A stretch of 17,546 nt of DNA from Gemmatimonadota bacterium (GTDB lineage Bacteria > GCA-2686955): assembly GCA_002686955.1 (NCBI GenBank), contig NYZA01000116.1:1-17546 (forward strand). Reading direction: 5' to 3'. A model generated the notes under the pieces. It was not told where the DNA came from. It did no database searches and saw only the letters and a program-made list of their open reading frames with translations. The position numbers and the translations under genes were made by a program. Within the stretch, counting starts at the first letter, position 1, and each line of letters starts with the position of its first letter. Positions 1 through 17,546 of the stretch are shown piece by piece.

Positions 1-1870
1 CAGACTGCACCGGGTCGTTCGGCGGACCTTGGCCGACCGGCCGATCGGTGCCTCCGCCACTCGACTCGCCCTTTCGAAGATCCCCAATGCCCTCTTGCTC
101 CTGCCGATCGCGTGGCTTCTATTCGTTCAGGTTTTCTTCTTCTTGCGGCCCGATCCCGATCTCTACGAAGTATCCCGGTGGCTGATCGGCTCCAAGGCCG
201 CGGTCCTGGCGGGGACGTATTGGATCGCTGCCGCTCTTCTCGCGGTCGCGGCCGCGCGAGCCATCCCTCGATTGTTGCGCTCCGGCATCGCTTCTCTCTT
301 CACGGCTCTCGGAGTGGTGACGCTTTTCGGCGGGTTGATCTTCGCCTACCTCTCCCCATACACCAACCCGGATCCGCCGGCGGAGCGAGGCGGCGGCGAG
401 GACTCCGCCGTCCGCCCGAACGTGCTCCTGCTCACCCTCGACACGGTGAGAAAGGCCAATGTCTCCATCTACGGTTACGAGCGACAGACGACACCTTTTC
501 TACAGAGCCTCTCCGAAGAGTCGGTCGTCTTCGACCGGGCCTACTGTGTCTCATCGTGGACCCTACCGACCCACGCAGCGCTTTTCACGGGAATGCTCCC
601 GGCCGAGAGCGGCGGAGTCTCCGCGGCGCGAGAGCTGCGCGACGATGCCCCGACGCTTGCCGGCATCCTCCGCGAGCAGGGGTACGCGACAGCCTCGATC
701 ACGGCGGGCTATGCGCTGCACCGGGTCTTTGGTGCGTCCAAGGGGTTCGACTGTTACGACGATCGGCTCGAGGCCTATCTAAGTCGCCTGTCATTTGCTC
801 GATTCTCCAAAACCCTCCAAACTCGCTTCCGTCCTCCAACGAGCTGGGATGTGGCCCGCCAGCGAAGTGCGGAGACCGTGACAGGGCTCGGAATCGAGTG
901 GCTAGAGAAACGGGGCTCGCCGGCGTCACCCTTCTTCCTGCATTTGAATTACTTCGACGCACATGTGCCCTACGCTCCCCGCGACGGTTTCCGGCACTTC
1001 TCGAGAGACATTCCTCAGCCCCAGGGCCGCAACGAGCCGAGTCGGTTGTGGAGACACACAAAAACCGATGCTGCCCACGAGCGCATGCTCTTCGACGGCC
1101 GGCCCGTCGGTCAGGCTCCCTTTCTCAACGATCTCATCGACCTCTACGACGACGAGATCCGCTACATGGACCACTGGATCGAACGCCTCTTCGAGTATCT
1201 GCGCGAGGCCGGCATTCTCGACAATACCATTGTCGTCGTCACCAACGACCATGGTGAGAACATGGGCGAGCACGACCTTCTCTCACACGGAAAGGCGCTC
1301 TTCGCACCGGCCACCGATGGGATTCTCTTCATCTACGATGGACGGGCCCCCGGCACGTCGCGGCGAATCGACACTGTCGTCAGCCAGGCCGACGTTTTTC
1401 CGACGATCATCGAGGTGGTCGATGTGAACGGTGAGCTGGAATCGCATTACCGCGAGAAGAGGAGGTTTCGCGGCAGCAGCCTTCGGCCCCTGCTGAATGG
1501 TGCGTCCGGGGCCACGTCCGACGCCGAACACAACGACTGGTGGACCAACCGCGCCGTTTTCGCGCAGATCTTCAAGAACCGTGGTGCAACCGAGACATCG
1601 CAAGAAGACCAATGGGCACTCACGTCGCTCGTCCGAGGCCGCTACAAGCTCCTGTGGACCCCGGACGGCAAGAGAAGGCTCTTCGACCTCGTCTCCGATC
1701 CGGGTGAGACGATCGATCTCGGCGCGCTCGGCATGGCGGCGCTCGCCGACGAGCTGGCCCTCGATCTCGTGGAGATGGAATCTCACATGGATGTAGCCCG
1801 GCAGACCAGCTCGCCCGACGAGGTTGCCGCAAAGATGCGGATTCTGAAGAGTCTCGGCTATGTTCAGTAG
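1..1870 (+). CDS. Membrane-anchored sulfatase/phosphotransferase-superfamily protein (5' end uncertain)
   Basis: The frame is open to the left edge. The first possible start inside the window is a TTG at 29 with no clear ribosome site, so the true start may lie upstream. Counting from that TTG (613 aa), three hydrophobic segments lie at about 20-39, 58-78 and 90-109, followed by a sulfatase-fold domain. Metal-site motifs are visible: LDTVR (Asp138), FDAH (310-312), TNDHGE (405-410), then H415 and H420. The nucleophile motif reads TLPTH (178-182), so the position that is Cys or Ser in formylglycine sulfatases is Thr. Thr is the nucleophile in the related lipid phosphoethanolamine and glycerol-phosphate transferases. 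I infer an inner-membrane enzyme with an extracytoplasmic hydrolase or transferase domain; the substrate is unknown. The C-terminal end (LKSLGYVQ) resembles the usual tail of bacterial sulfatase-like proteins. It converges on the response-regulator gene 48 bp away. Confidence 0.85.
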   Translation, partial: RLHRVVRRTLADRPIGASATRLALSKIPNALLLLPIAWLLFVQVFFFLRPDPDLYEVSRWLIGSKAAVLAGTYWIAAALLAVAAARAIPRLLRSGIASLFTALGVVTLFGGLIFAYLSPYTNPDPPAERGGGEDSAVRPNVLLLTLDTVRKANVSIYGYERQTTPFLQSLSEESVVFDRAYCVSSWTLPTHAALFTGMLPAESGGVSAARELRDDAPTLAGILREQGYATASITAGYALHRVFGASKGFDCYDDRLEAYLSRLSFARFSKTLQTRFRPPTSWDVARQRSAETVTGLGIEWLEKRGSPASPFFLHLNYFDAHVPYAPRDGFRHFSRDIPQPQGRNEPSRLWRHTKTDAAHERMLFDGRPVGQAPFLNDLIDLYDDEIRYMDHWIERLFEYLREAGILDNTIVVVTNDHGENMGEHDLLSHGKALFAPATDGILFIYDGRAPGTSRRIDTVVSQADVFPTIIEVVDVNGELESHYREKRRFRGSSLRPLLNGASGATSDAEHNDWWTNRAVFAQIFKNRGATETSQEDQWALTSLVRGRYKLLWTPDGKRRLFDLVSDPGETIDLGALGMAALADELALDLVEMESHMDVARQTSSPDEVAAKMRILKSLGYVQ

Positions 1871-2713: not shown

Positions 2714-4405
2714 TCAGTCCACCCACTGCGATTCTAACCTCTTCGTAGCGCGGGCAAGGGCCGAGGCTAGGGTTTCCAGGCGGTCCGGGTCGACCCCTTC
2801 GTCCCTGAGGCGCCGCAGCTCGAGCTGGGCTTCTTCGAGTCGGCCCAGAGAGGTCAGGCAGAGGGCCCGCGAGATGCGCGGCGCGGGGTCGGCGGGTTCC
2901 AGCTCGGACGAAATCTCGAAGTAGCCGAGCGCTCTCTCGAATTCGGCGCGGCCGGCGAAGGCGGCACCGAGCATGCCGGCCACGCGCGCGGTCAGGGGAT
3001 TGTGAGCCTCGTGATCGATGAGCAGATCGAGCGCCTCTTGCGCGCGGCCCGCTCTGTGCAAGGTGGTGGCGTACGCGGTCGTGACCTTCTCCATGCGCGG
3101 GGCGAGGTCGTGGGCGGCCGCGTAGAGCTCGATCGCACGGGCGAGATCGCCTCGCCGCTCGAAATCGGCGCCGAGGTTTTGAAGAGCACGGGGGTTCGAG
3201 GGGAGGGCCTCGACCACCGAGCTCCAGAGTGCGCCTTCGTTCCGCCAGTCGGGAAGTCTGCGGGCGGTGAGCAGGGCGCCCGCCGCGAGGAGGGGAACCA
3301 AGATCGCGGGGGCGCTCCAGCGGTGGTGCCGCCGGAGGCGGTCGAGAGCGAGCGCGAGCGCGATGCAGGGGCCGACACTCGGCAGATAGAGGAAGCGCTC
3401 CGCATAGGGCTGGGGGATCGGGATCAGGTTCGAGACCGGCAGCAGGGCGATCGCGAACCAGGCGAGGGCGAAGGGGAGCTCGGGCGCCCGGGCCCGGAGC
3501 CGCGCGGAGCCGGCGAGGAGAACGAGGAAGAGGAAGGGGACGATGAATGGGAGCGGATGAGGGGGCTCCGGGGCGCCGGCGGGGCCGTAGTCGGCGATCA
3601 GGGGCCAGGGGGAGATGAGCATGCGTGCGGCTAGGGTCAGGGAGCGGCCCGCCGCGGAGATTCGCGGGTAGAAGCCGTCCCATCCCAGTCCCGCCCCCGC
3701 CGCGGCGAAATCGCCGAAGATCCAGCTTCGCAGCGTCAGGTAGAGCAGGAGAGCGAGCAGGGCGCTGGTCCAGAAGCGCCGGCGCCCGCGGATGACGGGG
3801 AGGTCGCGGGTCCACCAGACGAGCGCTATGGCGAGGGGTAGCGTGATCGCCAGCTCTTTCGCGCCCAGGGCGAGCATCCAGAGAAGCACGATGGCCGCCG
3901 CCGATCGCCACGAGTCGCGCGCCCGTGAGGCAACGAGCAGCGCGCCGATGAAGGGGAGCGCGGAGAGCAGGTCGGTGAGATCGCTGGCGAACGCGACCGC
4001 TTCGGTGTGGATCGGGTGGACAGCGAAGAGCAGGCCGGCGGCGAGGGCGACCGTGGGGGAGGCGTGGAAGAGGGTCGCGGCGAGCAGGACCACGAGCGCC
4101 GTGACGCCTGCGTGCAAGAGAAGGCTCTCGGCGTGGTAGACGCGGGGTTCGAGCCCGAAGAGCGACTGGTTGAAGGCGAAGAGGAGCGAGGCGACGGGTC
4201 GGTAGTAGCCGGCCCTGGGCGGCTCATGAGAGAGCTCCGTCCAGTACTGGGGGGTCAGCGCGGCGGCCAGATCGCTCGGCCCATCCCATCGGGCCTGGCC
4301 GAATTTGTGGGCATCGTCCCAGACGAAACCATGGCCGAGGATCGGCGCGTGCAGCGCGAGAGCCACGAGTGCGGCTGCGAGCGCCGCGAGCATCCTGCCG
4401 TTCAT
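2714..4405 (-). CDS. TMTC-like membrane glycosyltransferase with C-terminal TPR repeats
   Basis: This 563-aa protein has about ten hydrophobic segments between residues 5 and 370, followed by a soluble helical region from about 385 with TPR-like repeats. N-terminal motifs fit the TMTC family (DUF1736, GT-C fold): FVWDD with Asp30/Asp31 in the first loop, GYYRPV (66-71), a YHAE...LLLH stretch (90-98) and AVHPIHTEAV (128-137). Animal TMTC proteins are O-mannosyltransferases that act on extracytoplasmic protein domains using a lipid-linked sugar; a similar role here is inference from family. The ATG at 4405 lacks a clear Shine-Dalgarno, but the hydrophobic first helix begins right there. A hairpin at 4449-4481 separates it from the upstream ExbD/TonB-like operon. 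The response-regulator gene follows after 12 nt. Confidence 0.87.
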   Translation of the reverse strand: MNGRMLAALAAALVALALHAPILGHGFVWDDAHKFGQARWDGPSDLAAALTPQYWTELSHEPPRAGYYRPVASLLFAFNQSLFGLEPRVYHAESLLLHAGVTALVVLLAATLFHASPTVALAAGLLFAVHPIHTEAVAFASDLTDLLSALPFIGALLVASRARDSWRSAAAIVLLWMLALGAKELAITLPLAIALVWWTRDLPVIRGRRRFWTSALLALLLYLTLRSWIFGDFAAAGAGLGWDGFYPRISAAGRSLTLAARMLISPWPLIADYGPAGAPEPPHPLPFIVPFLFLVLLAGSARLRARAPELPFALAWFAIALLPVSNLIPIPQPYAERFLYLPSVGPCIALALALDRLRRHHRWSAPAILVPLLAAGALLTARRLPDWRNEGALWSSVVEALPSNPRALQNLGADFERRGDLARAIELYAAAHDLAPRMEKVTTAYATTLHRAGRAQEALDLLIDHEAHNPLTARVAGMLGAAFAGRAEFERALGYFEISSELEPADPAPRISRALCLTSLGRLEEAQLELRRLRDEGVDPDRLETLASALARATKRLESQWVD

Positions 4406-4504: not shown

Positions 4505-5512
4505 TTATTCGGGTGTCAGCATCAGTGGATAACGGCAGTCGACATCGTCCGCCGCGGGGCCGAACTGCATCTTGTCGAACCAGCGCGTGAGGCAGCGATC
4601 GAGGCCACCGATCGTTACGTCGATGTCGCCCGAGTTGATCGACACGCGCGTTACCTTGCCCGCCGCACCGATGGTGAACTCGAGCCAAACCCGGCCGCGC
4701 AGGGCGGGGTCGAGCTTGAGCGAACGCTCATAGCAGGCCTGAAATGTGCGCGCCCATTTTGCGACGACCTGTCTGATGGCGCCGTCGGTGCGAGCAGCGG
4801 GTTGTCCTCCGCTGCCCGAGACAGTGCCCGGTCCGGCCTCGATCTCCACCCGCTCGGCCCCCTCCAGCGATGTGCGCTCGCCCGAGGGACCGCCGGCGTT
4901 CGATATCAATCCGGCCGCGCCCTTGGTCTCGCGGAGCGGCTTCGCTTCGAGGCGCCGGTCGCCGGGGCCGGAGCTCTCTGCGATCACATCGGCGTTTCTG
5001 GCCGCCTTCAGCCGCCTGCTCTGGGCGACACCCAGCGCACCGGGTCCGGTGCCCGAAGGACCGCGCATCGCGCCGAGCACACCGAGTCGACTCACGTCGC
5101 GCGGGGCTGTGGGGGGCGGATCGCCCGGGCCCTCTTCGGCGGCCGTTGGCTCCGGCGCTGGATCACCGGCGTCGGCGAGCTCTTCCGGCTCGGGTTCCGG
5201 CTCCGGTTCCGGTTCCGGTTCCGGTTCCGGCTCGGGATCGCCGGGTTGACTGAGAGACGCATCGGCCATCTCGATCTCAGGCTCGGGCTCCGGCGGCGCC
5301 ATGTAAGCTCGAACCACGATGCTCTCGAGGTACTCGTCCTGGCTGTTCGCCACGGCTGGGGGAGGATCGGCGATCAGGATCGCGGCCGAAACCAGGGCCC
5401 ACGATAGGACGGCCCCGAGCAGCGTGCGGCGGAAGAAACGATCCGCCTCGGTGGCGTGGAAAACCACCACGGGTCTTTGCGTCTTCCCTTCGATCCGAGG
5501 GGACGAACTCAT
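4505..5512 (-). CDS. TonB-like energy transducer with AgmX/PglI-type C-terminal domain
   Basis: A 335-aa protein starting at the ATG at 5512, where an AGGAG ribosome site overlaps the stop of the preceding ExbD gene. It has a short cytoplasmic N-terminus, one membrane segment (about 30-48), a proline/acid-rich periplasmic spacer with nine Pro-Glu pairs (93-110), and a low-complexity linker. The C-terminal domain at about 245-335 shows FQACYERSL, then LRGRVWLEFTIGAAGKV, then LDRCLTRWF and CRYPL. This is the AgmX/PglI C-terminal pattern, TonB-like, known from the Myxococcus gliding proteins GltJ and GltG. It lacks their large N-terminal cytoplasmic modules, so it resembles a minimal version. 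Its place after ExbB and two ExbD genes implies that it carries the motor's work across the periplasm. The partner is not shown by sequence. Confidence 0.9.
   Translation of the reverse strand: MSSSPRIEGKTQRPVVVFHATEADRFFRRTLLGAVLSWALVSAAILIADPPPAVANSQDEYLESIVVRAYMAPPEPEPEIEMADASLSQPGDPEPEPEPEPEPEPEPEPEELADAGDPAPEPTAAEEGPGDPPPTAPRDVSRLGVLGAMRGPSGTGPGALGVAQSRRLKAARNADVIAESSGPGDRRLEAKPLRETKGAAGLISNAGGPSGERTSLEGAERVEIEAGPGTVSGSGGQPAARTDGAIRQVVAKWARTFQACYERSLKLDPALRGRVWLEFTIGAAGKVTRVSINSGDIDVTIGGLDRCLTRWFDKMQFGPAADDVDCRYPLMLTPE
5183..5236 (-). repeat. Hexanucleotide tandem repeat encoding (Pro-Glu)9
   Basis: Nine six-base units, based on TTCCGG on the + strand, run in tandem within the TonB-like gene. 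Four adjacent units (5207-5230) are identical. On the coding strand they give alternating Pro and Glu, the kind of extended rod seen in TonB. The unit length is a multiple of three, so slippage would change rod length without breaking the frame. Confidence 0.9.
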
Positions 5513-5521
5513 CAGCGTCTC

Positions 5522-6091
5522 CTAGCGTCCGGCTTCCGTAGCTTTGTCCATCGCCAGAGAGACCTCGGCGAACGACGCCTGTCCGCAGGAGTAGATCACC
5601 CGCCGCAGCAGCTCGAAGGGGATGTTCTGGTCACCACTGAGCGTTACCCGTCCCTGCCACGCGATCTCCTCCGTGCCCACGGTGGCCGAGGAGGCCGCCC
5701 GCGCCGCCAGTTTCGCGATATGGATCGCGCGATCACGTTGCTGGGCGAGCGCGGCCACGAGCTCAGGGATCTCGGCGGTGCCCTGCTCGTAGACATCGTC
5801 GATCCTGGCCACGGTCGCGCCGTCGACCACGATGGCGTTCTGTGTCACCGCGACGGGGACCGAGCTCCTCTTCACTCCACCGGCCTCCTCGGAGTTCGGA
5901 AGATCGAGATCGGGAGCCTTGACCGTGTCGTCGCTAGAGAAATTGACCAGTAGGAAAATCAACAGGATCGTGAACATGTCGATCATCGAGGTGATGTTCA
6001 GCACGAAGGGTCGCTTCGAGAAGCGAGCGGCTCTGCGCGCCGACATGCTCCCGCCGCTGCACAGGGGCCTCTTGGAAGGGCTGAAGCTCAT
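5522..6091 (-). CDS. ExbD/TolR-family protein with the canonical membrane Asp
   Basis: A 189-aa protein starting at the ATG at 6091, supported by GAGGAG five nt upstream. Its start overlaps the stop of the preceding ExbD gene as ATGA (6088-6091). A basic cytoplasmic N-terminus leads to a single membrane helix at about 32-51 beginning LNITSMIDMFTILL. Asp38 sits where ExbD/TolR/MotB-type stators carry the proton-binding Asp. The rest is a periplasmic domain with a C-terminal ExbD-like fold, although it carries an extra insert of about 20-30 residues around 100-150. With the ExbB-type protein it should form a proton-driven channel energising the TonB-like protein encoded directly downstream. Confidence 0.92.
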   Translation of the reverse strand: MSFSPSKRPLCSGGSMSARRAARFSKRPFVLNITSMIDMFTILLIFLLVNFSSDDTVKAPDLDLPNSEEAGGVKRSSVPVAVTQNAIVVDGATVARIDDVYEQGTAEIPELVAALAQQRDRAIHIAKLAARAASSATVGTEEIAWQGRVTLSGDQNIPFELLRRVIYSCGQASFAEVSLAMDKATEAGR

Positions 6092-6561
6092 CGTGGCTCC
6101 TCGGGATCGGCTGGACCGATCGAGATCTCGCTGAATCCCGCCGACTTGCAGCGGTCCATGACCGACACCACCGATTGGTAGCGAATGGCGGGGCTGGCGG
6201 CCACGATCACCATCTGCTCATCGGGGTGGGCTTCGCGCACTTCGGAGAGCTGGCGTCCCAGTCCCTCGAAGTCGTAGGAGCCGTCATCGAGACGTGGGAG
6301 CCTCTCGAGCGCGGCCTCGTTCCCCTCGACCCTCAACCCCGATTCCGTCACCGACACCCGCAGATTCAGATCGACCTTCTCTTCCTCCTCCGTCTCGGGT
6401 TCGGACGAGACGGGCAGGTTCAGATCGACCATAGCGGTGTGGGCGAAGGCGGCGGTCAGCAGGAGGAAAGGCACGAGGATCATGAAGACGTTCATGATCG
6501 GCGTGATGTTCAGATCCTCCTGGACGCGCACGACGCGAGATCGGCGGGTGGCGGGAAACAT
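6088..6561 (-). CDS. ExbD/TolR-family protein with Asn replacing the membrane Asp
   Basis: A 157-aa protein starting at the ATG at 6561 with GAGGAG upstream. It has a short basic N-terminus, one membrane helix (about 22-40), then a periplasmic domain with an acidic stretch (EEEEK, about 58-62). The helix entrance reads LNITPIMNVFMILV. Aligned residue by residue with the second ExbD (LNITSMIDMFTIL), Asn24 falls on the proton-carrying Asp. It is therefore unlikely to bind the proton itself and may act as a structural or regulatory partner in a mixed ExbD dimer. The gene lies 21 nt after the ExbB stop and overlaps the next ExbD by four bases, so the two are probably translationally coupled. Confidence 0.9.
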   Translation of the reverse strand: MFPATRRSRVVRVQEDLNITPIMNVFMILVPFLLLTAAFAHTAMVDLNLPVSSEPETEEEEKVDLNLRVSVTESGLRVEGNEAALERLPRLDDGSYDFEGLGRQLSEVREAHPDEQMVIVAASPAIRYQSVVSVMDRCKSAGFSEISIGPADPEEPR

Positions 6562-6582
6562 CGGCTTCTCCTCTTGGTCGGC

Positions 6583-7269
6583 TCAGCGAGCGGCGACCGT
6601 CTCCTCGATCTCGGCCTTCGCCGCCGCCGCCTCCGACTTCCTCAAGATGAGCAGATTCATGACCCGCACCGAAGCCTCGTCGATCTGCTCGATCAACCGC
6701 TCGGTCTTCCGCTGCATCATCGAGTAGGCGACGGTGGTCGGAACGGCCACGATCAGGCCGAGGGCCGTCGTGTTCAGCGCCGTGGAGATCCCAGCGGCGA
6801 GAAGCATCGCCCGCTGCTCCGTGGCCGCACTCTGAACGGCGGCGAACGACTGCATCAGACCGACGATCGTTCCCAGGAGCCCCAGCAGTGTGGCGATCTG
6901 CGCGATCGTTCCCAGATAGGGGGTGCGATCCTGCAGGGTCGGGATCTCGGCCAGCGCCGCTTCGTCGACGGCGTTCTGCACATCTCGCGAGCCGCCTGTA
7001 CGCGCCATGATGGCGGCCCTGACGATACGGGCCAGCGGTGTCTTCTTGGCCATCGAAAGCGTGAGCGCCTGGTCGAAATCGCCGGACCTGATATGCCCGC
7101 AGATCTTGTTGGTGAAGGCCCGGGCCGACATGCTGCTTCGGACGAAGAGCACGAACCACCGCTCCATCGTCACAGCGGTCGCAACGGCTCCGCTGAGCAG
7201 AATGAGATGCATGAACACCCCACCCTGCTGAAGGAAGGCGAGCATTTGCTCGGGTGAGTACATACCCAT
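6583..7269 (-). CDS. MotA/TolQ/ExbB-family proton channel protein
   Basis: The start is the ATG at 7269, chosen because GAGGAGG lies seven nt upstream; the frame extends to 7368 but that extension overlaps the preceding gene and has no ribosome site. The 228-aa product has three membrane segments at about 18-36, 121-143 and 162-184. The ERW motif after the first segment and the pattern TLLGLLGTIVGLM (127-139) are typical of ExbB/TolQ. Thr134 and Thr168 correspond to the conserved pore threonines of TM2 and TM3. It should form the pentameric ring around an ExbD pair, using the proton gradient to drive the TonB-like protein encoded two genes further on. In Myxococcus gliding the equivalent is AglR; orthology was not tested. 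Confidence 0.93.
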   Translation of the reverse strand: MGMYSPEQMLAFLQQGGVFMHLILLSGAVATAVTMERWFVLFVRSSMSARAFTNKICGHIRSGDFDQALTLSMAKKTPLARIVRAAIMARTGGSRDVQNAVDEAALAEIPTLQDRTPYLGTIAQIATLLGLLGTIVGLMQSFAAVQSAATEQRAMLLAAGISTALNTTALGLIVAVPTTVAYSMMQRKTERLIEQIDEASVRVMNLLILRKSEAAAAKAEIEETVAAR

Positions 7270-7315
7270 CAGAGATCCTCCTCGAAAATCGGGCAACTGA
7301 ACGCCTCGGGCGCCA

Positions 7316-7627
7316 TCATCGAACCGCCTCCTCGAGCTGCCCGAGGAGGGAGCTCCGGCGGAGTTCATCCAAATCGACCGTGCGGGTGGGCGCGAGATTC
7401 ACCGCTCCCAGTCGCACAACTTCGTCGACGGGGTCGGCCACCGCCGCGATCCCGCCGCTCATTTCAGCGATCTTCTTCGGGATCATGAAGAAAACCTGGG
7501 GCTTGCGCACTCGCCCGTGGATCACCAACTCCGACTCGATCTGAAGCACGCCTGGCGACACCGGAGGGCTCATCGGCTCGCCGGTGGAGACAAGGGCAGC
7601 AGCAACGAGTGTCGAGATCAGGGCCAT
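7316..7627 (-). CDS. Small exported protein of unknown function in the ExbB/ExbD operon
   Basis: A 103-aa protein starting at the ATG at 7627 with GGAG eight nt upstream. It begins with a hydrophobic stretch (residues 1-14) ending in AALVS, compatible with a short signal peptide. No transmembrane helix follows. The middle reads IHGRVRKPQVFFMIPKK (36-52), then an acidic, Leu-rich C-terminus (DLDELRRSSLLGQLEEAVR). I do not recognise a named family. It lies 41 nt after the large TPR gene and 46 nt before exbB, on the same strand, with its own ribosome site, so it is probably expressed and works in the periplasm with the motor. It is not a TonB or Pal protein. Confidence 0.72.
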   Translation of the reverse strand: MALISTLVAAALVSTGEPMSPPVSPGVLQIESELVIHGRVRKPQVFFMIPKKIAEMSGGIAAVADPVDEVVRLGAVNLAPTRTVDLDELRRSSLLGQLEEAVR

Positions 7628-7668
7628 GCTTTCGCTCCGTCAGGGTCCTCGTGTCTCAAATCGGATCG

Positions 7669-10600
7669 TCAGTTCAAAGGAACCGTGAGGAGCATCTTCG
7701 CCCCTCCCCGTGAGAGGTCCGGTTTCAGTTCCACCCTTGGACCTTTCAAATCGAGATCGACTTCGGGGTCGCCGGAACTGTAGTTTTTGTTGGATTTAGC
7801 GTCTTCCTGTCCATCATCTCTACCGGGAGCCCAGATCGCGATGCCCAAGGCACCGGTGCTCAAGGCACCTAGGGCCACCACCGACCCGGTGTTGGAACCT
7901 TGGGCAGCCATGATCGCGGTGGCGATTCCGCCGGCCAGGCCCGTTCCCCAGAGGGTCGTTCGGGTGCCCGAGCCGATCGCGAAGCCGGGCCGCGGCGGGT
8001 CGAAACCGGCGGGCGCCCCCTCGGTCTCGCGGGCACTGAGCTCCGGGAGCGCCAGCTCCGCGCTCACGGCCAGCTGAATCGGCGCGCCCAGAGGCCCCTC
8101 GCGTTGCGGGAGCGGAAGGTCGATCCCGGGACGGAACGTTTCCGCACGGGCCCTCGCCAGCTCCGCGAAGGGTTCGTCAAGGCCGTTTTCGACCGACATC
8201 TCGACCGCCGCCACATACGACTCGATCGCCTGCTCACCGTAGGGTGAGGCGTAGTCCTCGAGCTCCATCAGATAGAGCGCCGCCTCGACCTGGGAGAGAT
8301 CGGAAGGCGTGGGTGCCCCAATGATCGCCCTGTGAAACTCCTCGAGCACCTCGCCCATGCGCTCCAGGGAGCGGATCGACCACTTCGCCGAGCGATACTC
8401 CGAGGCCCTCGAGTACCCGTCGAGCAACGCATTCATCTTCGTCTCTTTGCGTTGGGTCGTCTCCTGAAGGGGCGGCCGAATGGCGTACTCCCGATAGTCC
8501 GGCAGATCGAGATCGATCCTCTTCCACTGCGCTTCGGCCAGAATCGCGACCGGCACCTCCGCGCCGGCGGAACGGAATCGCTCCGCCGCGTCGAGAAGCG
8601 CGCCGAGTCGGCCGGAAAGCTCGTCGGCGCCGGCGCCAGCTGACTCCGCCAACCGGATCTCGCGAATGCGCGAGTCGAGGTTTCGGCCGTGGTCGGTTTC
8701 GTACTCGGAGTGATAGGCGGCGAAGGCGGATCGCGCACGCTCCATCTCACCCGCCTCGTGCCAGTAGAGGGCAGAGTAGTAGGCTGCGTCATCCCCTATC
8801 TTGGTTCCGGATGTTCTCGACGCGAGTCGGCCCAAAAGAACCGCCGCTCTGGTGTGCTCACCAGCTTCCTCACGCAGAACCGCGGCCTGGCGAAGCGCAT
8901 CTTTGGCCAAATCGGAATCGGGATACTCGGCCGGAATCCGCTCGAAATCCCTCGCGGCGAGCTCCGCCTCCCCCGCGCCCAGCCACGCGGTCGCGGCGTC
9001 GTAGAGCGCCGCATCGTTGCCCTCGGCCAGAGGATCGATGGCGACCACGCGCAGGAAGTGCGCGGCGGCCTCCGAGGCTTCGCCCGCGTCTCTGAGGGTT
9101 TCGGCCTGTCGATATATCGCGGCGGCCCGCAGAGCGGATGAGGATTCGATCGCGGGGTCCATTTTGGCCGCCCACTCTTCCGCCTCGGCGAATCGTCCCA
9201 CCTCGAAGTAGCTGCGGGCGACCATCTCCGTCGCCCTGACGGCCAGCTCGGAATCGAAGGCATTCCCCGCGCAACGAACGAAATCCTCCGCCGCCTCGGC
9301 GTGAAGTTCAGCATCGAAGTGGAGCTCCGCGCGGCGCATCCACAGGCTCGGAATCCGTTCATCGCCCGCGTGTTGCTCGGCAAGTCGATCGATGGTCGTC
9401 GACATGCGCTCGAAGTTCGACGTTCCAACCTCCACGCCGGCCGCGTTCAGGGAGTGGATCGCGTTGTAGAGAGCATTGGCGGCGATCGCACTCGATTCCG
9501 GCAGCAGATCGGCGATGTCGGCGGCCGCGACGAAATGGTCGGCCGCGGCGCCGGGTTGCTCCAGGTCTAGCCAGGCGTCCGCCCGCTGCATCGCGACCTG
9601 TAGCTTCCGATCGCTCTGGGGGTAGCGGTCGAGGAATGAGGCGTACAGATCGACCGCGCGCCGCAACCCCTCGGCATCCGCCGCATCGCGCGCTCGGCCG
9701 TGGAGGCCCGCGGCGCTGGAGTAGTGGAACTCCTCGGCCGACCTGCGCACATCGACCGCCTGGTCGTCGGCGACCCATTCGTCGGCCCATGTCGTGCCGG
9801 GTCCGAAAAGACTGGAGTACCGCGCCCGCGCGGCGAGAGCCTCTCCTTCCTGCTCTTGCAGCTCGAGCACCTCGACCAGCTCCCGTTGCGCTCTAGGAGC
9901 TTCTTTGTGCTCGGGGTAGTTCTCGACGAAGCCGCGGAATGCCCGCTCTGCTGTCTGAAACTCCCCCTCTCCGCGGAAGAGACCACCGAGGCTGAGGAGG
10001 AGCTCCGCGCCGTACGATCGATCTCCGATCCGCTGCAGGTAGCTCTGAAGCCCCTCCACTCCGCTGAACTCGGAGAAGCTGATGGCGATGTACGATTTCG
10101 CCTCACTCGCCATTCCGCCGAGGGCTTCGCCGGCCTCGGTATCGTCTACCAGATAGGTGAATACGCTGATCGCATCGGCATAGCGGGAGAGCCGGTAGTA
10201 CGTCCATCCCAGCTTGTAGAGGGCCTCTTCGTAGAGCGGGGAATCGGGCGAAGCGAGGACCGACCGATACGATTCGGCCGCGTGTTCGAGTCGATTCGCG
10301 TCGAAGTACTCCTCTCCCATGCGGAGATGCGCTTCCGGCGCATAGGTGGAGTCGGAGAATCGATCCACGAGCTCGGCGTAGCGCTCGAGGGCCTTGTCGT
10401 TCGCCCCCTCTTCGCGAAGGCAGTAGGCCAGGCCGTAGAGCGCCCCCGCGGCCTCGGGAGCATCGGGATGGGCCTCGAGAAGAGCCCGGTAGGCGGCCTT
10501 CGAGCGGGAGTAGTCCGCGATCGGGGCCTCGCCTTCGAAGGCGTCGAGGTTCTCGAAGCGGACGAGATGCTCGGCGCGCTCGTGCGCGAAAAGAAGTTCC

Positions 10601-10878
10601 GCTAGCTGGAATCCGAGCGCGGCAGCCTTCGGATCCTCGGGGTAGGCCCGAACGACCCTATCCAGACGAGCGATCGCCCGCTCGTGCCGCGAGTGGAAGC
10701 TCTGCTCGAGTTGCTCGATCCTATCCACGCGCTCCCGCGACGCGGAGCGCAGGGTCTCGACCGCTTCCACGGCCTGATCGACCGGAGCCGCCTCCTCCGC
10801 GGATGCCAGGGCGCCCAACGCCAACAGGAGCGTCGCTGCTCCCGTCACGCGGCCGCCGCCCGTCGCTTTGCGCATCAT
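7669..10878 (-). CDS. Large exported TPR protein with C-terminal hydrophobic pair (GltD-like size and context)
   Basis: A 1069-aa protein. The ATG at 10878 overlaps the previous gene's stop (ATGA); a second ATG at 10875 is equally possible. A signal peptide (about 1-27, ending ASA) precedes a long array of degenerate TPR units, with typical pieces such as LYGLAYCLREEGANDKALERY and ALYKLGWTYYRLSRYADAI. The array covers roughly 60-750, with helical regions beyond. Two short hydrophobic glycine-rich segments lie at about 976-992 and 999-1016, followed by a 50-residue polar tail. The array is therefore periplasmic and may be held in the inner membrane by a C-terminal hairpin. Myxococcus GltD (AgmU) is also a large periplasmic TPR protein of gliding motility. 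The match is by architecture and context, not alignment. Confidence 0.88.
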   Translation of the reverse strand: MMRKATGGGRVTGAATLLLALGALASAEEAAPVDQAVEAVETLRSASRERVDRIEQLEQSFHSRHERAIARLDRVVRAYPEDPKAAALGFQLAELLFAHERAEHLVRFENLDAFEGEAPIADYSRSKAAYRALLEAHPDAPEAAGALYGLAYCLREEGANDKALERYAELVDRFSDSTYAPEAHLRMGEEYFDANRLEHAAESYRSVLASPDSPLYEEALYKLGWTYYRLSRYADAISVFTYLVDDTEAGEALGGMASEAKSYIAISFSEFSGVEGLQSYLQRIGDRSYGAELLLSLGGLFRGEGEFQTAERAFRGFVENYPEHKEAPRAQRELVEVLELQEQEGEALAARARYSSLFGPGTTWADEWVADDQAVDVRRSAEEFHYSSAAGLHGRARDAADAEGLRRAVDLYASFLDRYPQSDRKLQVAMQRADAWLDLEQPGAAADHFVAAADIADLLPESSAIAANALYNAIHSLNAAGVEVGTSNFERMSTTIDRLAEQHAGDERIPSLWMRRAELHFDAELHAEAAEDFVRCAGNAFDSELAVRATEMVARSYFEVGRFAEAEEWAAKMDPAIESSSALRAAAIYRQAETLRDAGEASEAAAHFLRVVAIDPLAEGNDAALYDAATAWLGAGEAELAARDFERIPAEYPDSDLAKDALRQAAVLREEAGEHTRAAVLLGRLASRTSGTKIGDDAAYYSALYWHEAGEMERARSAFAAYHSEYETDHGRNLDSRIREIRLAESAGAGADELSGRLGALLDAAERFRSAGAEVPVAILAEAQWKRIDLDLPDYREYAIRPPLQETTQRKETKMNALLDGYSRASEYRSAKWSIRSLERMGEVLEEFHRAIIGAPTPSDLSQVEAALYLMELEDYASPYGEQAIESYVAAVEMSVENGLDEPFAELARARAETFRPGIDLPLPQREGPLGAPIQLAVSAELALPELSARETEGAPAGFDPPRPGFAIGSGTRTTLWGTGLAGGIATAIMAAQGSNTGSVVALGALSTGALGIAIWAPGRDDGQEDAKSNKNYSSGDPEVDLDLKGPRVELKPDLSRGGAKMLLTVPLN

Positions 10879-12821
10879 TGCTCCTCTCCTGCGTTGGCGC
10901 CCGGCTTCGCGCCATTCCGCGATGCGAGCACCAAGGTCGAATCGGGCTCGTCTCCACGGGTCAGATGTTGTAGCTCCATCCGGGCACTCTCCATCCGCAT
11001 CAGACCGATCTCCGCGAGGCGCATTTCGGCGGCCTTGCGCAGCGAAGGCAGCTCCGATGACGCGCCATCGGCGGATACCGCGATCAGCTCGCGGGATTCG
11101 AGGCTCAGGGAGCGCACCACCGGAAGGAGCGCACCGATCTGGTGGGCGGAGGACAGCGAGCCGGCGCGCAACGCGCTGGTCTGGAGCTGTTGGGCTTCGG
11201 CCTCGATCCGTTCCAGGCGCGCCGCCTCTCGGCGAAGCGAGGCGAGCTGCTCATCGTGGCGGCGCAGCGAAGCGAAGCGCGGATCGTTGGCGACCTTGCT
11301 CACCAGCTCGTCGAGATTCCGTTCCGCGTCGTCGGGTCTACCCGCGACCATTTCGAGCTCCGCCAGAGCCATGAGCGATCGGAGGGCGGGCACGGTTCCT
11401 GGGGATGTGTCGCGCAGCTCCTCGAGACGCCGGCGCGCCGCCTTCACATCTCCGACCCCCGCCAAGCTCTGAGCGGCGAGAAGAACCGACTCCGTGGCGA
11501 CCGGGCTGTCGTTCGGGATCTCTTTCAAGATCTCGACCGTGTCGCTGAAGCGGCCCGCATCGAAAAAAAGCAGCCCCAGAGAAAGAACCGCCCGATCGCG
11601 GACCTGATTGGCTCCCCCCCTGTCGGAGATCTCGATGCTGAGGTCGGCGAGCATCGTTCGCGCTAGATCGAGCTCGCCCGTCGCCGCTACAGCCGCCGCG
11701 AGAGAGAGGTTCGCCCGTTCGGCGTGGGGCGAATCGGACCCGACGGTCTCGAGGGCAAGGCGCGCCGTGTGCGGATCTCCTAGTGCCAGCGCGGCGATTC
11801 CTACGTAGTAGGCGACCTCCGCCTCCGGAACGACCGCCGCGAATTCGCCCGCTCCATCCAAAACACCTTCGTAGTCGCCGAGCTCGAAGCGGAGCGAAAG
11901 CGCATCGGTCGCGGCGCGCGCCGCCATCGTGCTTTCGGGATGCTCCCTGACGATCGCGGCGAGCGCGTGTTCGGCGGTCCCAAGGCGCCCGAGGGCGAGT
12001 CGCGTCGTGGCGAGATGATCCAATGCGCTAGGCCGCCCCGGCCAGCTCGATTGGGAGCTCGCGAGAGCAGCGAGTCGGCGCTCCGCCGCACGGAATTGAA
12101 TCTCGCGGGCGATCCCTTCGGCGTGGGCGGCGTTGGTCAGATGATCCAGGCCCCGATCGAAGCTTCTCTCCGCCATCCGAGCGAGTTCGTCCGGCTCCGC
12201 CGATTCGATCAACTTGCCATGGGCGGCCGCCACGAAAGTGCCCGCCGCATCGGCCCCGACCTGATAGACCCGCACCCGTTCGAAGGCGATTTCCTCCTCC
12301 AGCACGGCCTTCCTATCCCGGAGCACGACTTGGGCCTCCTCCAGCCCGGTCATCGCTTCGGCCATCAGCGACTCTTTGGACTGAACGCTCCAGGAGTAGC
12401 CGGGCGATAGGGCATCAACCTCTTCGCGCAGCGCCCCCAGAGCCGCGGCGCCATCCCCGATCTCTCCGTCGAGCGCGCTCTCGGGCAAAGCCGAGAGCAT
12501 GAGCTCGAGCTCAGCCGCCGCGTCCGATGCGGCGACCGTCTCCGACACGAGCGCCCGCCGCAGGGCGTCCTCCCTGCCCCTCATCCCACGGTTTCCAAAC
12601 TCCAAGGAATGCAGCGCTCCCCGTTCCAGCAGCTCGTCGAGCACCAGATCCACCTCGTCGATCAGGTAGATCTCGTCGTCGATCGCAGCCTCGAGACGAA
12701 AATACTGCGCTTGAAGCAACTCGATCCGAGCGTCGAGCGAGCGCTCGACGGAGGGCATCTCCGTGGGTTGCACGGCCGACACGGCCGCTAGGACCGCACC
12801 GAAAAGGGGGAGGCAGTTCAT
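10875..12821 (-). CDS. Exported TPR/coiled-coil protein, first gene of the motor operon
   Basis: Starting from the ATG at 12821, with GGAG nine nt upstream, gives 648 aa; a GTG at 12836 would add five residues. A signal peptide (about 1-17) is followed by a helical, probably coiled-coil region (about 25-60, rich in Leu, Glu and Asp) and a long all-helical body. TPR-like repeats are clearest around 250-490, for example ALDHLATTRLALGRLGTAEH. The C-terminus (about 500-630) is again rich in Glu, Arg and Leu and may be coiled coil. No catalytic motif is seen. It should be a periplasmic scaffold protein. As the leading gene it faces the 373-bp divergent region, and its stop overlaps the start of the larger TPR gene. 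Its size and position recall GltC of the Myxococcus gliding apparatus; this is inference. Confidence 0.86.
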   Translation of the reverse strand: MNCLPLFGAVLAAVSAVQPTEMPSVERSLDARIELLQAQYFRLEAAIDDEIYLIDEVDLVLDELLERGALHSLEFGNRGMRGREDALRRALVSETVAASDAAAELELMLSALPESALDGEIGDGAAALGALREEVDALSPGYSWSVQSKESLMAEAMTGLEEAQVVLRDRKAVLEEEIAFERVRVYQVGADAAGTFVAAAHGKLIESAEPDELARMAERSFDRGLDHLTNAAHAEGIAREIQFRAAERRLAALASSQSSWPGRPSALDHLATTRLALGRLGTAEHALAAIVREHPESTMAARAATDALSLRFELGDYEGVLDGAGEFAAVVPEAEVAYYVGIAALALGDPHTARLALETVGSDSPHAERANLSLAAAVAATGELDLARTMLADLSIEISDRGGANQVRDRAVLSLGLLFFDAGRFSDTVEILKEIPNDSPVATESVLLAAQSLAGVGDVKAARRRLEELRDTSPGTVPALRSLMALAELEMVAGRPDDAERNLDELVSKVANDPRFASLRRHDEQLASLRREAARLERIEAEAQQLQTSALRAGSLSSAHQIGALLPVVRSLSLESRELIAVSADGASSELPSLRKAAEMRLAEIGLMRMESARMELQHLTRGDEPDSTLVLASRNGAKPGANAGEEQ

Positions 12822-13194
12822 CGGATGGAGCTCCACGGTTCGGTGTGCCTTCAGCGCTCAGGAGCCCAGGTTCCCAACCGGTGTCGCTCGATCGACAGCC
12901 AACGAATGGTCGGAACGGGGGCGGCGCTTCTTTGCTCCTCCGGTTTATCGGACGAAGGTGTGGACGCCTTGAGCGCCCGATTCCCTCTCTCCCTATTGAG
13001 GGAAGGACCGAGTCGTCACGTTCGAGATCTTGGACGAGAAAGCCTCAAGCCTCCGTGCTGGTTCGCCGATATCCCGAAAGACTCCGGGAACCGACATTGC
13101 CCGGAGGAGATCCATCGGGTGCGCTTCCCACGCGGAGCGCGGAGAACCCGTCCAACGCCGTCATGAGACGGGCGTGCGCGTGAGGAGTCAGAGC
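12822..13194. promoter_or_regulatory. Divergent intergenic region between the motor operon and the barrel gene
   Basis: These 373 bp separate two divergent genes and should hold both promoters. No coding frame here has a ribosome site or a protein-like composition. An inverted repeat TTCCCTC (12981-12987) and GAGGGAA (12998-13004), with a 10-nt spacer, is the clearest element and could be an operator or a small stem. A possible weak sigma-70-like pair on the + strand is TTGAGC (12969-12974) and TATTGA (12994-12999), but the 19-nt spacing is poor and the second box overlaps the repeat. No convincing promoter was found for the - strand operon. Confidence 0.4.
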
Positions 13195-14148
13195 ATGCAC
13201 AACGTGACACGAGTCACCTGGATCGTCGCCGGCTTGATCGGCGGAGCGGCGGGCCGCGCCGACGCGATCGCCAACTTCCAACCTAGCGACCTCGTCGACA
13301 TGCCGACGGCCAGAGTATTGCCGCACCGCGTGCCGGTCGTAACGACCTTCATGACCACCTACGCATCGGCGGCACGGCTCCATACGAAGGGATCGCAGAC
13401 CTTTACGGTCGGAGTCTTCGATTGGGCCGAGGCGGGTCTTTTCGTCGAGAGCGAGCAGAAGATCGCCGGTGCCATCAAGCTGAGGGTCAGCGACGAAGGC
13501 CGCTACCTTCCCGCCATCGCGGTCGGCGTGCAGAACATCGGAGGCGACGACCAGATATCCGAGTACGGCAGCGATTTCTTCTACTCCAGCGGGCAGGCCA
13601 ATTCCTTCTATGTGGTGGGATCGAAGCGATTGACCTGGCTGCCCGAGCTCGACGTCACGCTGCATCTCGGCGTCGGTTCCGGGCGATTCCGCGGCGTCAC
13701 TACGGCCTCGAACGATGTGCAGGGTGTGTTCGCGGGTCTGGAATTCTGGGTGACCGACTATCTGCGTTTCATGTTCGAAGAGGACGGAGCGGACGGAAAT
13801 ATCGGCGCCACTTTCCGTGTGAACGACAGCTTCTCGGCCCACCTGGCCCTTGCGGAGTTCGAGTCCGCCTTCAACTACAAACGCAGTCCGGCGAGCGTCG
13901 ACCCCAAGGTGCACCCGAAGGTGAGCTTCGGAATGAACTACGCCTTCGACCTCCTTCGTCCCCCGCTCTCTCGCAAACAGGCGAAGATCAAGCAGATTCG
14001 CAGCCAGCAAAGGGAGAACGCCGTGCTCGAAGCGGAGCTCGAACGGCTTCGCGCTCGGCGCCAAGACGCCGAGGAGCGGATCGCGGCTTACAAGGCCGCG
14101 CTTGCCAAGGCACCGCCGATCGACCGAGCCGACCAGGGCGACCAGTAG
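13195..14148 (+). CDS. Probable outer-membrane beta-barrel protein of YjbH type with C-terminal coiled coil
   Basis: A 317-aa protein starting at the ATG at 13195, which has GAGGAG seven nt upstream; the longer frame from 13030 would bury the signal peptide. A signal peptide (about 1-24) is followed by alternating polar/hydrophobic strands ending in aromatic residues. The pieces LVDMPTARVLP, FDWAEAGLF, AIAVGVQNIGG, then an EYGS...VVGSKRL stretch and LHLGVGSGRF resemble the YjbH/exopolysaccharide barrel family, in which a protein with an N-terminal small residue-rich strand lines an outer-membrane barrel. The last 65 residues (about 250-310) form a charged coiled coil rich in Glu, Arg, Ala and Gln, which is unusual for a barrel. 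It is divergent from the ExbB/ExbD operon and may be its outer-membrane partner. Function is inferred. Confidence 0.78.
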   Translation: MHNVTRVTWIVAGLIGGAAGRADAIANFQPSDLVDMPTARVLPHRVPVVTTFMTTYASAARLHTKGSQTFTVGVFDWAEAGLFVESEQKIAGAIKLRVSDEGRYLPAIAVGVQNIGGDDQISEYGSDFFYSSGQANSFYVVGSKRLTWLPELDVTLHLGVGSGRFRGVTTASNDVQGVFAGLEFWVTDYLRFMFEEDGADGNIGATFRVNDSFSAHLALAEFESAFNYKRSPASVDPKVHPKVSFGMNYAFDLLRPPLSRKQAKIKQIRSQQRENAVLEAELERLRARRQDAEERIAAYKAALAKAPPIDRADQGDQ

Positions 14149-14301: not shown

Positions 14302-16542
14302 TCATTCGGCCTTTCCGCTCCATCTCCGGCCGGCGGCCGTGCGGCACCACCAACGACGCCCATCGGTCTCGAAGAGCACGGCGCCGTCTCGATCGGTTCG
14401 CAGCAGCGGAATGCCACGCGCTTCCAGCTCCGTGATCGTCTCCGGGTGGGGATGTCCGAAGCGGTTCCCGAACCCGGCGCTGGCGATCGCGAGGGAGGGA
14501 GACACCGCGTCGAGGAAGGGCTTGCGACTCGATGTGCGGCTTCCGTGATGCCCGAGAACCAAGATGTCGGCGTGTGGAATCGGGCCGGCTTCCGCCAAGG
14601 CGCGCTCGCCCGCGGCCTCGAGATCACCCGGCAACATGATGGCAACGCCTCTGGCGCGGACTCCGAGCGCGATCGACCCATCGTTCACCGAAGTGCGATC
14701 GCCCGCTAAGGGCCGGCGCGCCCACCATGCGTCCATCTCCACCTCGTCCGACGGCTCGAGACCGATCGCCGGGATTCCTTGGCGCTGGGCGGCCGAAGAT
14801 GCGCGCAGACTCTCGTGTCTGCCGGTGGGATAAAGAAGCGCCATCGGGCGTCTCGCCTCGGTCGCCCAAGGCACGCCACCATCGTGATCGGCGTGGGCGT
14901 GGGAAGTGATCAGGATCTCCTGTCGTGCCGAGCCGACGGCGCGATCGATGGCGCGCATGACCGGTGGCGGACCGCGATAGCCCGGGGGACCCGCGTCGTA
15001 GAGCAGGGATCGGCCGTCCGGAAGACCGATCCAGACCGCCAGCCCCTGGCCGACGTCGCCGACGAGGACCGAAAAAGGGGGATCGGCAAGCGCCCTGAAG
15101 GTGACGCCGGTCAGACCCAGAGCCGTCAGGAGCAGTGCCGCGCCGAGTGAGAGAGATGACCGTCGGACCAGAGCGCGGATGAGAGCCAGCCCGGCACCGG
15201 CGAGCCCGATGGCGGCTGGAAGGGAGAGCCCGGGCGCCTCGAACGAGGAGAGCGGCAGCTCCGCGAAAAAGCGCGCGGTCCATGCCAGACCGGCGGCGCA
15301 CCAGGCGGCGACCCCCTCGACCCCGCGACCGAGCCCATGCCCCCCCAGAGCGCTGGGAAGTCCGCAGAGCAACGAGGCCAGCAGGGTCCCGGTCAGCGGA
15401 ATTCCGATCAAGCCGCTCAGCGGCGACCAGATCGGCACCCGACCGAAGTGGTGCGCGACGAGCCCCATGGTGGCGAACTGCGCCGCCAGACCGACGCGCA
15501 GGGCGGCTGCGCCCCATCCCGCCAACCCCCTTCCCGAGCGCGCGCCGCAGATCAGAATCGCCGATGTCGCCGCGAACGAGAGCTGGAATCCGGCGGCTGT
15601 CGGCGCCTCGGCGTCGAGGATCAGGATGGCCAGCGCCCCGATGCCGACCGCATTCAGAGGGGTGGTCCGCCGCCCCACCGCCGCCGCGAAGGCCCAGGCC
15701 CCCACGGCGATGCAGGCCCGGAGAACGGAGGGGGCTCCACCGACGATCAGGGGAAGAAGCGTGACGACGAAGAGCAGGGCGATCGCTCCCCATCGGCGCG
15801 GGAATCGGGAAAGGCACGCCGCCGTCACGGTCGCGACGAAGCCGATATGCAAGCCCGAGAGGGCGAGCAGGTGGGCCAAGCCGGCGGCCCGCATAGAATC
15901 GACCAGGGTAGGATCGAGCGAGGAACGGTCCGCGAGGAGCAGGGCGCGAAAGAGCCCCGTCTCGTCGGACGAAGCAGCGATCGCCCGCGAGAGCCGGCTC
16001 CGTAGGCGCAGACCGATCGGGATCGGGTGTGCCTCCGCGCAGGGTTCGAGCAGCGACCGCGCGATCAGCAGGGCGGGACGCTCGCGTGAGGCGACTCGCC
16101 CCGCCGCCCCGACCTGCACCAGGCCGGGGCGAAAATGCCGAATCCGTCCGGCCGGTCGGAGCTCGCCCACGATCCGCGACAGCTCCCCGACCGAAGGAAG
16201 CTCGACCGCGGCGCGAGCGACCAACCGAAAGCGTTCTCCGGTATGTGCATCCACCCCTTCCTCCCCGGCCGTGACCCAGATGCAGGCATCTCGCTCTCGT
16301 GACGCGCCAGGAGGCAAGGGTCCCGCCGCCGGCGCTGGGGATTGCGCCAAACCGGCCACGAGCGCCGCCGCGACAGGGGCCAGACGCGTGGGCCGGCGGC
16401 GTAGGACGCGCTCGCCCAAGGCCAGACCGATGACCAGAAGCCGAGCCACCCACGGCAGAAACAGAGCGGGTGGGACGACCCAGGAGAGCAGGTAGCCCGC
16501 ATAGACCCAGACTGCGAGACGGAGGGCGGGCAGGGCTTGCAC
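14302..16542 (-). CDS. comEC: ComEC/Rec2-family DNA uptake channel
   Basis: This 746-aa protein matches the usual ComEC length. It has an N-terminal membrane pair (about 10-65), a periplasmic soluble domain, then the Competence domain with LLALSGLHIGF (225-235), PSVLRA (271-276) and GFQLSFAAT (318-326), and several helices up to about 480. A metallo-beta-lactamase-like domain follows, with VGDVGQG (494-500), HAHADHDGG (548-556), SVNDGSI (618-624), PGDLE (638-642) and LGHHGSRTS (663-671); all the expected metal-ligand residues are present. ComEC carries single-stranded DNA across the inner membrane during natural transformation. The start is a GTG (16540-16542); an in-frame stop lies two codons upstream and no ribosome site is obvious, so the exact start is uncertain. 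A small membrane-protein gene precedes it by 95 bp. Confidence 0.93.
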   Translation of the reverse strand: MQALPALRLAVWVYAGYLLSWVVPPALFLPWVARLLVIGLALGERVLRRRPTRLAPVAAALVAGLAQSPAPAAGPLPPGASRERDACIWVTAGEEGVDAHTGERFRLVARAAVELPSVGELSRIVGELRPAGRIRHFRPGLVQVGAAGRVASRERPALLIARSLLEPCAEAHPIPIGLRLRSRLSRAIAASSDETGLFRALLLADRSSLDPTLVDSMRAAGLAHLLALSGLHIGFVATVTAACLSRFPRRWGAIALLFVVTLLPLIVGGAPSVLRACIAVGAWAFAAAVGRRTTPLNAVGIGALAILILDAEAPTAAGFQLSFAATSAILICGARSGRGLAGWGAAALRVGLAAQFATMGLVAHHFGRVPIWSPLSGLIGIPLTGTLLASLLCGLPSALGGHGLGRGVEGVAAWCAAGLAWTARFFAELPLSSFEAPGLSLPAAIGLAGAGLALIRALVRRSSLSLGAALLLTALGLTGVTFRALADPPFSVLVGDVGQGLAVWIGLPDGRSLLYDAGPPGYRGPPPVMRAIDRAVGSARQEILITSHAHADHDGGVPWATEARRPMALLYPTGRHESLRASSAAQRQGIPAIGLEPSDEVEMDAWWARRPLAGDRTSVNDGSIALGVRARGVAIMLPGDLEAAGERALAEAGPIPHADILVLGHHGSRTSSRKPFLDAVSPSLAIASAGFGNRFGHPHPETITELEARGIPLLRTDRDGAVLFETDGRRWWCRTAAGRRWSGKAE

Positions 16543-17048: not shown

Positions 17049-17546
17049 GTGCGCGAAACCCTTCGCCAACTGCTCACGCAGCGCTCGGTCACCCGAGGCA
17101 GCTACGTGCTCTCGAGCGGCAAGACCAGCGACTACTACGTCGACTGCCGCAGAACCACTCTCCATCCCGAAGGAGCTTGGCTGATCGGCAAGCTCCTGGA
17201 GCCGATCGTCGCCGCGCGGGAGCCGAGAATCGATTCGGTGGGTGGCCTGACTCTGGGCGCCGATCCCCTCTCCCTCGCGATCGCCATAGAGTCGCGCAGG
17301 AGCGTCCCTCCGATTCGCTGCTTCACTGTGCGAAAGGCGACCAAGGAGCACGGCCGAGGCAATCGCATCGAGGGCAGCTTCGAGCCCGAAGACCGCGTCT
17401 TGGTGCTGGAAGATGTGGTCACCACGGGTGCATCGGCCCTGGCGGCCGTGGAAGCCCTGCGAGAAGCGGGTGCTCGGATCGACGGCGTGCTGGCCTTGGT
17501 CGATCGCGACGAGGGCGGCCGCCGGAGAATCGAAGAAGCGGGGCTC
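17049..17546 (+). CDS. pyrE: Orotate phosphoribosyltransferase, 3' end cut by the window
   Basis: The GTG at 17049 follows AGGAGG by five nt, and the frame stays open for 166 codons to the right edge. The protein catalyses orotate plus PRPP to orotidine monophosphate in pyrimidine synthesis, in the cytoplasm. The PRPP-binding motif VLVLEDVVTTGAS (117-129) with Glu121/Asp122 is typical. The flexible catalytic loop reads RKATKEHGRG (95-104) with Lys96, Lys99 and His101. The N-terminal part has the family's SSGKTSDYYVDCR (22-34) and GGLTLGADPL (65-74). Full-length family members are about 180-215 aa, so only the last few dozen residues are missing. Confidence 0.95.
   Translation, partial: MRETLRQLLTQRSVTRGSYVLSSGKTSDYYVDCRRTTLHPEGAWLIGKLLEPIVAAREPRIDSVGGLTLGADPLSLAIAIESRRSVPPIRCFTVRKATKEHGRGNRIEGSFEPEDRVLVLEDVVTTGASALAAVEALREAGARIDGVLALVDRDEGGRRRIEEAGL

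Follow-up and report, generated by a model that had tools for sequence, protein, structure and literature searches.

A Candidate Non-Gliding Agl/Glt-Type Core Operon with a Divergently Transcribed YjbH-Related Barrel in a Gemmatimonadota Bacterium

The window analyzed here is the 17,546-nucleotide contig NYZA01000116.1 (C116) of a Gemmatimonadota bacterium (GCA_002686955.1, a fragmented assembly of 4.28 Mb that is 85% complete), and our subject is an operon of seven genes, all on the minus strand and spanning 12821 to 4505, together with an outer-membrane barrel gene that diverges from it. On balance we favor the reading that this operon encodes a dedicated, non-gliding Agl/Glt-type core complex, most likely acting on surface exopolysaccharide. 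Judged from sequence and gene order, AglR, AglQ, AglS, GltD, GltF and the GltG-type protein form one conserved gene unit, to which the YjbH-related barrel belongs both here and in other families. An earlier note on this DNA had described seven same-strand genes with a divergent outer-membrane barrel as a single system related to the Agl-Glt gliding machinery; coordinates, junctions and family matches confirm the arrangement, and the relationship is borne out by tree, profile comparison and gene order. That note passed over three things: the core complex had already been described in 2011 (PMC3169522), one ExbD of the motor lacks its transmembrane Asp, and there is a link to polysaccharide export. 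Three points appear to go beyond the published picture, namely GltF in the core of many phyla, the linkage of the barrel, and the missing Asp in the AglQ-position ExbD. The features are as follows, the seven genes running 5' to 3' as TPR, TPR, small exported protein, ExbB, ExbD, ExbD and TonB-like protein.

10875..12821, minus strand: exported TPR protein in the GltC place, 648 residues from ATG 12821 (GTG 12836 is possible); TPR_19 at 3e-18
7669..10878, minus strand: exported TPR protein, GltD orthologue by hhalign, 1069 residues
7316..7627, minus strand: small exported protein of the GltF/CglF family, 103 residues; motif LQIESELVIHGRVRKPQVFFMIPKK
6583..7269, minus strand: AglR, ExbB/TolQ-type proton channel by tree, 228 residues; MotA_ExbB at 4e-27
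6088..6561, minus strand: ExbD in the AglQ position, 157 residues; ExbD at 3e-21; transmembrane Asp replaced by Asn24 (PIMNVF)
5522..6091, minus strand: ExbD in the AglS position, 189 residues; ExbD at 2e-15; transmembrane Asp38 kept (SMIDMF)
4505..5512, minus strand: GltG-type TonB-like protein, 335 residues; NF033768 at 8e-16, above cut-off; GltG at 4e-8
13195..14148, plus strand: YjbH-related outer-membrane barrel, 317 residues, with signal peptide and C-terminal coiled coil (258-305)
12822..13194, no strand: divergent intergenic region between barrel and operon, by gene geometry; the same divergence occurs in the sister genome G001

The two TPR genes and the two ExbD genes overlap by 4 nt, and the other junctions are gaps of 41, 46, 21 and 9 nt. 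ExbB starts at ATG 7269, which is preceded by the Shine-Dalgarno site GAGGAGG, and not at the first ATG, 7368; for the barrel, ATG 13195 with GAGGAG before it is a likelier start than TTG 13030. Region 12822..13194 is probably a control region shared by barrel and operon.

The motor was placed by means of a tree into which other ExbB/TolQ proteins from the window genome (G000), its sister, a Myxococcus-like genome (G029) and a Bdellovibrio-like genome (G034) were entered. In this tree the window ExbB lies in one clade of 20 operonic or AglR copies, myxobacterial AglR included, with support 92/98, and groups apart from the other tested ExbB/TolQ copies of its own genome. Genome G029 is labeled Myxococcus-like on the GltG, GltE, CglF and CglE equivalogs, all above cut-off, and its AglQ- and AglS-position proteins measure exactly 162 and 194 residues, the lengths given in PMC3169522. 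Two ExbD homologues adjoin AglR in the window operon. The 1069-residue TPR protein is, by profile comparison, GltD: hhalign aligns it with myxobacterial GltD at 1e-44 over 851 columns and with GltD of core complexes at 2e-56 (alignments of about 850-890 columns), and none of the control TPR sets scores better than 3e-6 against it. The small exported protein is likewise GltF by its matches, since a hidden Markov model made from GltF members outside myxobacteria and Bdellovibrio, run on 2958 open reading frames, finds only positional GltF-type genes and nothing else to E = 1. These comprise the GltF/NfsF genes of G029, the Bdellovibrio-like GltF and small genes of Calditrichota; the G029 GltF matches NCBIfam CglF at 1e-37, and a Pfam search with GltF gave no convincing family. 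The GltF motif looks like the start of a TonB-dependent receptor (EEIVV-G), a likeness that we do not claim. The TonB-like protein carries an AgmX/PglI C-terminal domain above cut-off and consists of a transmembrane helix (22-48), a Glu/Pro linker and this C-terminal domain (about 240-335), which is modeled with a predicted local distance difference test score (pLDDT) of about 88 and for which Foldseek ranks TonB C-terminal domains first (prob 0.99, E 0.009). Unlike Myxococcus GltG, the window GltG has no FHA domain, nor do Calditrichota copies of similar length.

Calditrichota, Delongbacteria, Pseudomonadota and many further lineages show the same gene order, and the arrangement is thus more than chance. 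Among the genomes compared, G001 is the sole relative from the same family, all others sharing only the domain, so that the window lineage is a deep one. Two short contigs of G001 hold the unit in the same relative order, C647 with part of GltD, GltF, AglR, AglQ, AglS and part of GltG, and C606 with the TPR gene of the GltC place divergent from the barrel. GltF stands between GltD/GltE and AglR in the window lineage as well as in Calditrichota, Delongbacteria, Pseudomonadota and further lineages, and this fixed place in the core operons of many phyla argues that GltF belongs to the general core. In Luciano 2011, Group A, including gltF, is restricted to Myxococcales and Bdellovibrionales, and one additional gene is mentioned in non-myxobacterial clusters (PMC3169522); GltF may be that gene. 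At several Calditrichota-like loci (L164, L166, L168, L173 and others) the core operon sits between what appear by eye to be ATP synthase genes and an aspartyl-tRNA synthetase gene.

The window barrel matches Pfam YjbH at 2e-4 and 21 bits, below the gathering score of 24; 10 of its 16 homologues match YjbH at E <= 0.1, the best at 4e-7, and the match falls on the N-terminal part of YjbH. Its helix 258-305 is confident in the model and conserved as a charged, coiled-coil-like tail, and in the PDB the barrel profile matches nothing but coiled coils. In a search of 386 genomes, 14 have strong barrel matches (E <= 1e-20). The barrel directly precedes the TPR/GltD genes in seven genomes (G031, G178, G313, G241, G369, G141 and G278), where the unit continues with a small gene, AglR, AglQ, AglS and then, where the stretch reaches, GltG or another protein; six more (G001, G385, G258, G121, G106 and G080) hold partial barrel units, several at contig ends, and two (G328, G191) have weaker barrel members at the same place. 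By our own table count an AglR-type motor (E <= 1e-57) is present in 12 of the 14 strong-barrel genomes versus about 62 of 386 overall, and the remaining two carry a divergent AglR inside the barrel operon. The barrel stands beside the core operon in about eleven bacterial families, and the single-system reading of the earlier note, which would have fallen had the barrel never co-occurred with the operon, is supported. G241 and G369 also have second barrel copies (L112, L115) without adjoining motor genes. Myxococcus GltC is in complex with two barrels, GltA and GltB (PMC4488436). The window barrel beside the GltC place looks like a pair of the GltA/GltB-GltC kind, with another barrel.

The transmembrane Asp of ExbD, TolR and MotB proteins carries the proton. 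At this column the AglQ-position ExbD has Asn in 44 of 61 readable rows, Ser in 6 (two of them from the same genome), Gly in 1 and Asp in 10; Asp is present in 60 of 60 rows of the AglS-position ExbD and in 11 of 11 ExbDs outside these clusters. At loci with GltD or GltF beside the motor the AglQ Asp is lost in 45 of 47 rows, one of these being an unreadable gap scored as lost, and motor sets without such neighbors retain it in 8 of 15 (p = 7e-5, relatedness ignored); the tree implies several gains or losses. Two loci of family f21 (L172, L183) depart from the Asn rule, having full core operons with the AglQ-position Asp kept. The D28N change in Myxococcus AglQ does away with proton conduction, motility and sporulation (PMC3858216), and a review lists homo- versus heterodimers of AglQ and AglS as an open question (PMC9389320). 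Since an Asn-type AglQ homodimer could not work on the accepted mechanism, we predict the motor to be an obligatory AglQ-AglS heterodimer with a single proton-carrying Asp. More tentatively, core complexes in general could be asymmetric 5:2 one-Asp motors, natural counterparts of AglQ D28N, with the handling of surface polysaccharide via a dedicated barrel as their possible ancient task. A limited literature search found no paper reporting the missing-Asp pattern of AglQ.

The link to surface polysaccharide comes from neighboring genes elsewhere and from characterized relatives. Downstream of the core operon, and on its strand, G036, G315 and G045 have genes for an exported protein, for what is probably a barrel, and for a Wza-like OPX protein and a Wzc-like protein. 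In G029 the genes that come after the GltD-GltF-GltG cluster on C49 encode a cyclic-nucleotide-(cNMP-)binding protein, an exported protein, a 444-residue exported protein and an OPX protein; in G080 OPX and Wzc-type genes come next after the barrel-TPR pair. As the examined genomes have one to five OPX matches each, it seems unlikely that chance alone would place so many on the operon strand within about 5 kb. The core Glt operon runs into an OPX exporter at L043, L157, L161 and L167, from four unrelated families, with Wzc-like genes at the last three. The OPX protein WzaB of M. xanthus is MXAN_1915 and its barrel partner MXAN_1916 (PMC9603273), and the G4 gltD homologue, of unknown function, is MXAN_1922 (PMC3169522); we infer that the G029 C49 locus is the counterpart of these M. 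xanthus genes. YjbH and GfcD are members of polysaccharide-export operons (PMC9603273), and Agl-Glt and Agl-Nfs both work on surface polysaccharides, Agl-Nfs moving the spore-coat polymer (PMC3858216). In Fibrobacter, FSU_2396-2403 (OmpA, TPR, TPR, ExbB, ExbD, ExbD, TonB) rises on cellulose, and FSU_2396/2397 are found complexed with cellulases and a fibro-slime protein (PMC6851124, PMC4619616).

In the mechanism that we propose, protons would pass through an AglR pentamer around the AglQ-AglS heterodimer with its single protonatable Asp, and the resulting motion would be passed on to GltG. The GltG C-terminal domain would cross the periplasm on the Glu/Pro linker and engage GltF and the TPR proteins GltD and GltC, which may keep hold of the barrel by its coiled-coil tail, in the way that Myxococcus GltC holds GltA/GltB. 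At the surface the machine would then most likely grip, move or release exopolysaccharide, as Agl-Nfs does with the spore coat, and not drive gliding.

Of the known systems, the Group B core complex of Luciano 2011, described there as gltC, D, E and G with aglR, Q and S, clustered in non-gliders and of unknown function (PMC3169522), shares with the window the AglR/Q/S, GltD and GltG homologues and a TPR gene in the GltC place, all in one cluster. The window differs by its GltF homologue, its YjbH-related barrel, the lack of an operon GltE, a GltG without FHA and a different deep lineage. With Myxococcus Agl-Glt it shares the motor family, the GltD, GltF and GltG homologues and a barrel adjoining the GltC place, as gltA/gltB sit with gltC, but its AglQ-position Asp is Asn, its barrel is YjbH-related and MglA was not found. 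Myxococcus Agl-Nfs is of the same family and has a non-motility role on surface polysaccharide, but borrows its AglRQS motor from elsewhere, whereas the window motor lies in the operon. The Fibrobacter succinogenes operon FSU_2396-2403 has the same order (outer-membrane protein, two TPR proteins of 84 and 147 kDa, ExbB, ExbD, ExbD, TonB), a likeness by order and size, with an OmpA-family protein in place of the barrel. YjbH/GfcD of the group 4 capsule and yjb operons belong to the same outer-membrane barrel family of polysaccharide operons, but YjbH is a 698-residue double barrel, while the window protein, of about 317 residues, would have one barrel plus a coiled coil and is linked to a proton motor. 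Tree and gene content led us to reject, for the cluster as a whole, both Tol-Pal and an ordinary Ton system for iron or sugar.

Several observations weigh against our reading. The 648-residue TPR protein can be called GltC by position only: its best profile match is a Calditrichota TPR protein at the same place (1.8e-8), but GltE scores 3e-6, the sequence match does not rise above generic TPR level, and a family search with NCBIfam GltC gave no match. No GltE gene lies between GltD and GltF in the operon, the rest of the genome not having been searched; GltE is missing from this position in several Calditrichota operons too, and the family claim rests on the other core features, which are present, and is made for a variant. 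The single-sequence AlphaFold model of the barrel has a pLDDT of 38.7 and does not yield its fold. Most core operons examined have no OPX neighbor; the window carries no OPX gene and all four OPX genes of this genome are on other contigs, so that the substrate of the operon is assigned by family. The Fibrobacter likeness is one of gene order and protein sizes and not of compared sequences, the protein contacts in the mechanism are predictions, and in a genome about 85% complete the absence of MglA is not certain.

Among the alternatives, an outer-membrane integrity device, that is, a second Tol-Pal-like system pulling the envelope in growth or division without a polymer substrate, fares best and is still unlikely: ExbB/ExbD resemble TolQR and the TPR proteins resemble CpoB/YbgF, but the motor groups apart from the other tested ExbB/TolQ copies of the same genome, the unit has neither TolB nor Pal, and its neighbors elsewhere are polysaccharide exporters. 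We give slightly less weight to an energized importer in which the TonB-like protein drives uptake of oligosaccharide or another large substrate through the barrel. The TonB-like C-terminal fold and the cellodextrin import proposed for FSU_2400-2403 (PMC6851124) speak for it; yet the barrel is YjbH-like, family searches with it gave neither a plug nor a TonB-dependent transporter, the neighbors in other genomes are exporters, and Ton systems do not include two long TPR proteins. That the operon is the export step itself, part of a polysaccharide translocon with the polymer pulled through the barrel, is improbable: OPX, Wzc and barrel genes are adjacent in several lineages, but Myxococcus still exports slime and spore coat without agl genes (PMC3858216), and many core operons have no OPX gene nearby. 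Least probable is that the operon serves gliding as Agl-Glt does, with regulators and surface adhesin encoded at other loci of the genome, since, for all the homology of the motor and GltD, F and G to essential gliding parts, neither the window genome nor its sister gave an MglA match, in Luciano 2011 the core does not suffice for gliding and occurs in non-gliders (PMC3169522), and the motor is without the Asp that Myxococcus AglQ needs (PMC3858216), the acidic residue of the gliding machinery's AglQ transmembrane helix being replaced by Asn24. The MglA search, made with a myxobacterial query, gave no match in G000 or G001, a strong though not conclusive negative since both assemblies are incomplete; G029 has three copies, and G031, G241 and G369 have matches too. 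As MglA-type proteins occur in these last three, lack of MglA is not a defining mark of the whole family. The genes gltH, gltI, gltJ and gltK are not in the window, the rest of the genome not having been searched. Of the 'ancestral or non-gliding variant' in the earlier note, the second half is thus supported, with MglA not found and accessory gliding genes not in the window, and the first is not shown, as the trees do not resolve it.

Further genes flank the operon. A membrane protein with C-terminal TPRs (2714-4405, minus strand; TMTC-like by eye, Pfam matches TPRs only) is encoded on the strand of the GltG gene, 99 nt downstream of it; the gene may be co-transcribed and its product could modify glycans or proteins. 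A Sulfatase/phosphoethanolamine-transferase-like membrane enzyme (2-1870, plus strand; Sulfatase 6e-42) is convergent with the operon and truncated by the contig end. Judged by eye, 14302-16542 (minus strand) encodes a ComEC-like competence membrane protein and 17049-17546 (plus strand) is the start of an orotate phosphoribosyltransferase gene.

For the non-gliding Agl/Glt-type core complex that we favor, the Asn/Asp pairing of the two ExbD proteins bears on the AglQ/AglS homo- versus heterodimer question (PMC9389320), and a natural one-Asp 5:2 motor would let one ask whether rotation needs both aspartates. The function of the Agl/Glt core outside gliders was left open in 2011, and its conserved link to polysaccharide export and to a YjbH-related barrel yields a hypothesis directly testable in cultured bacteria.

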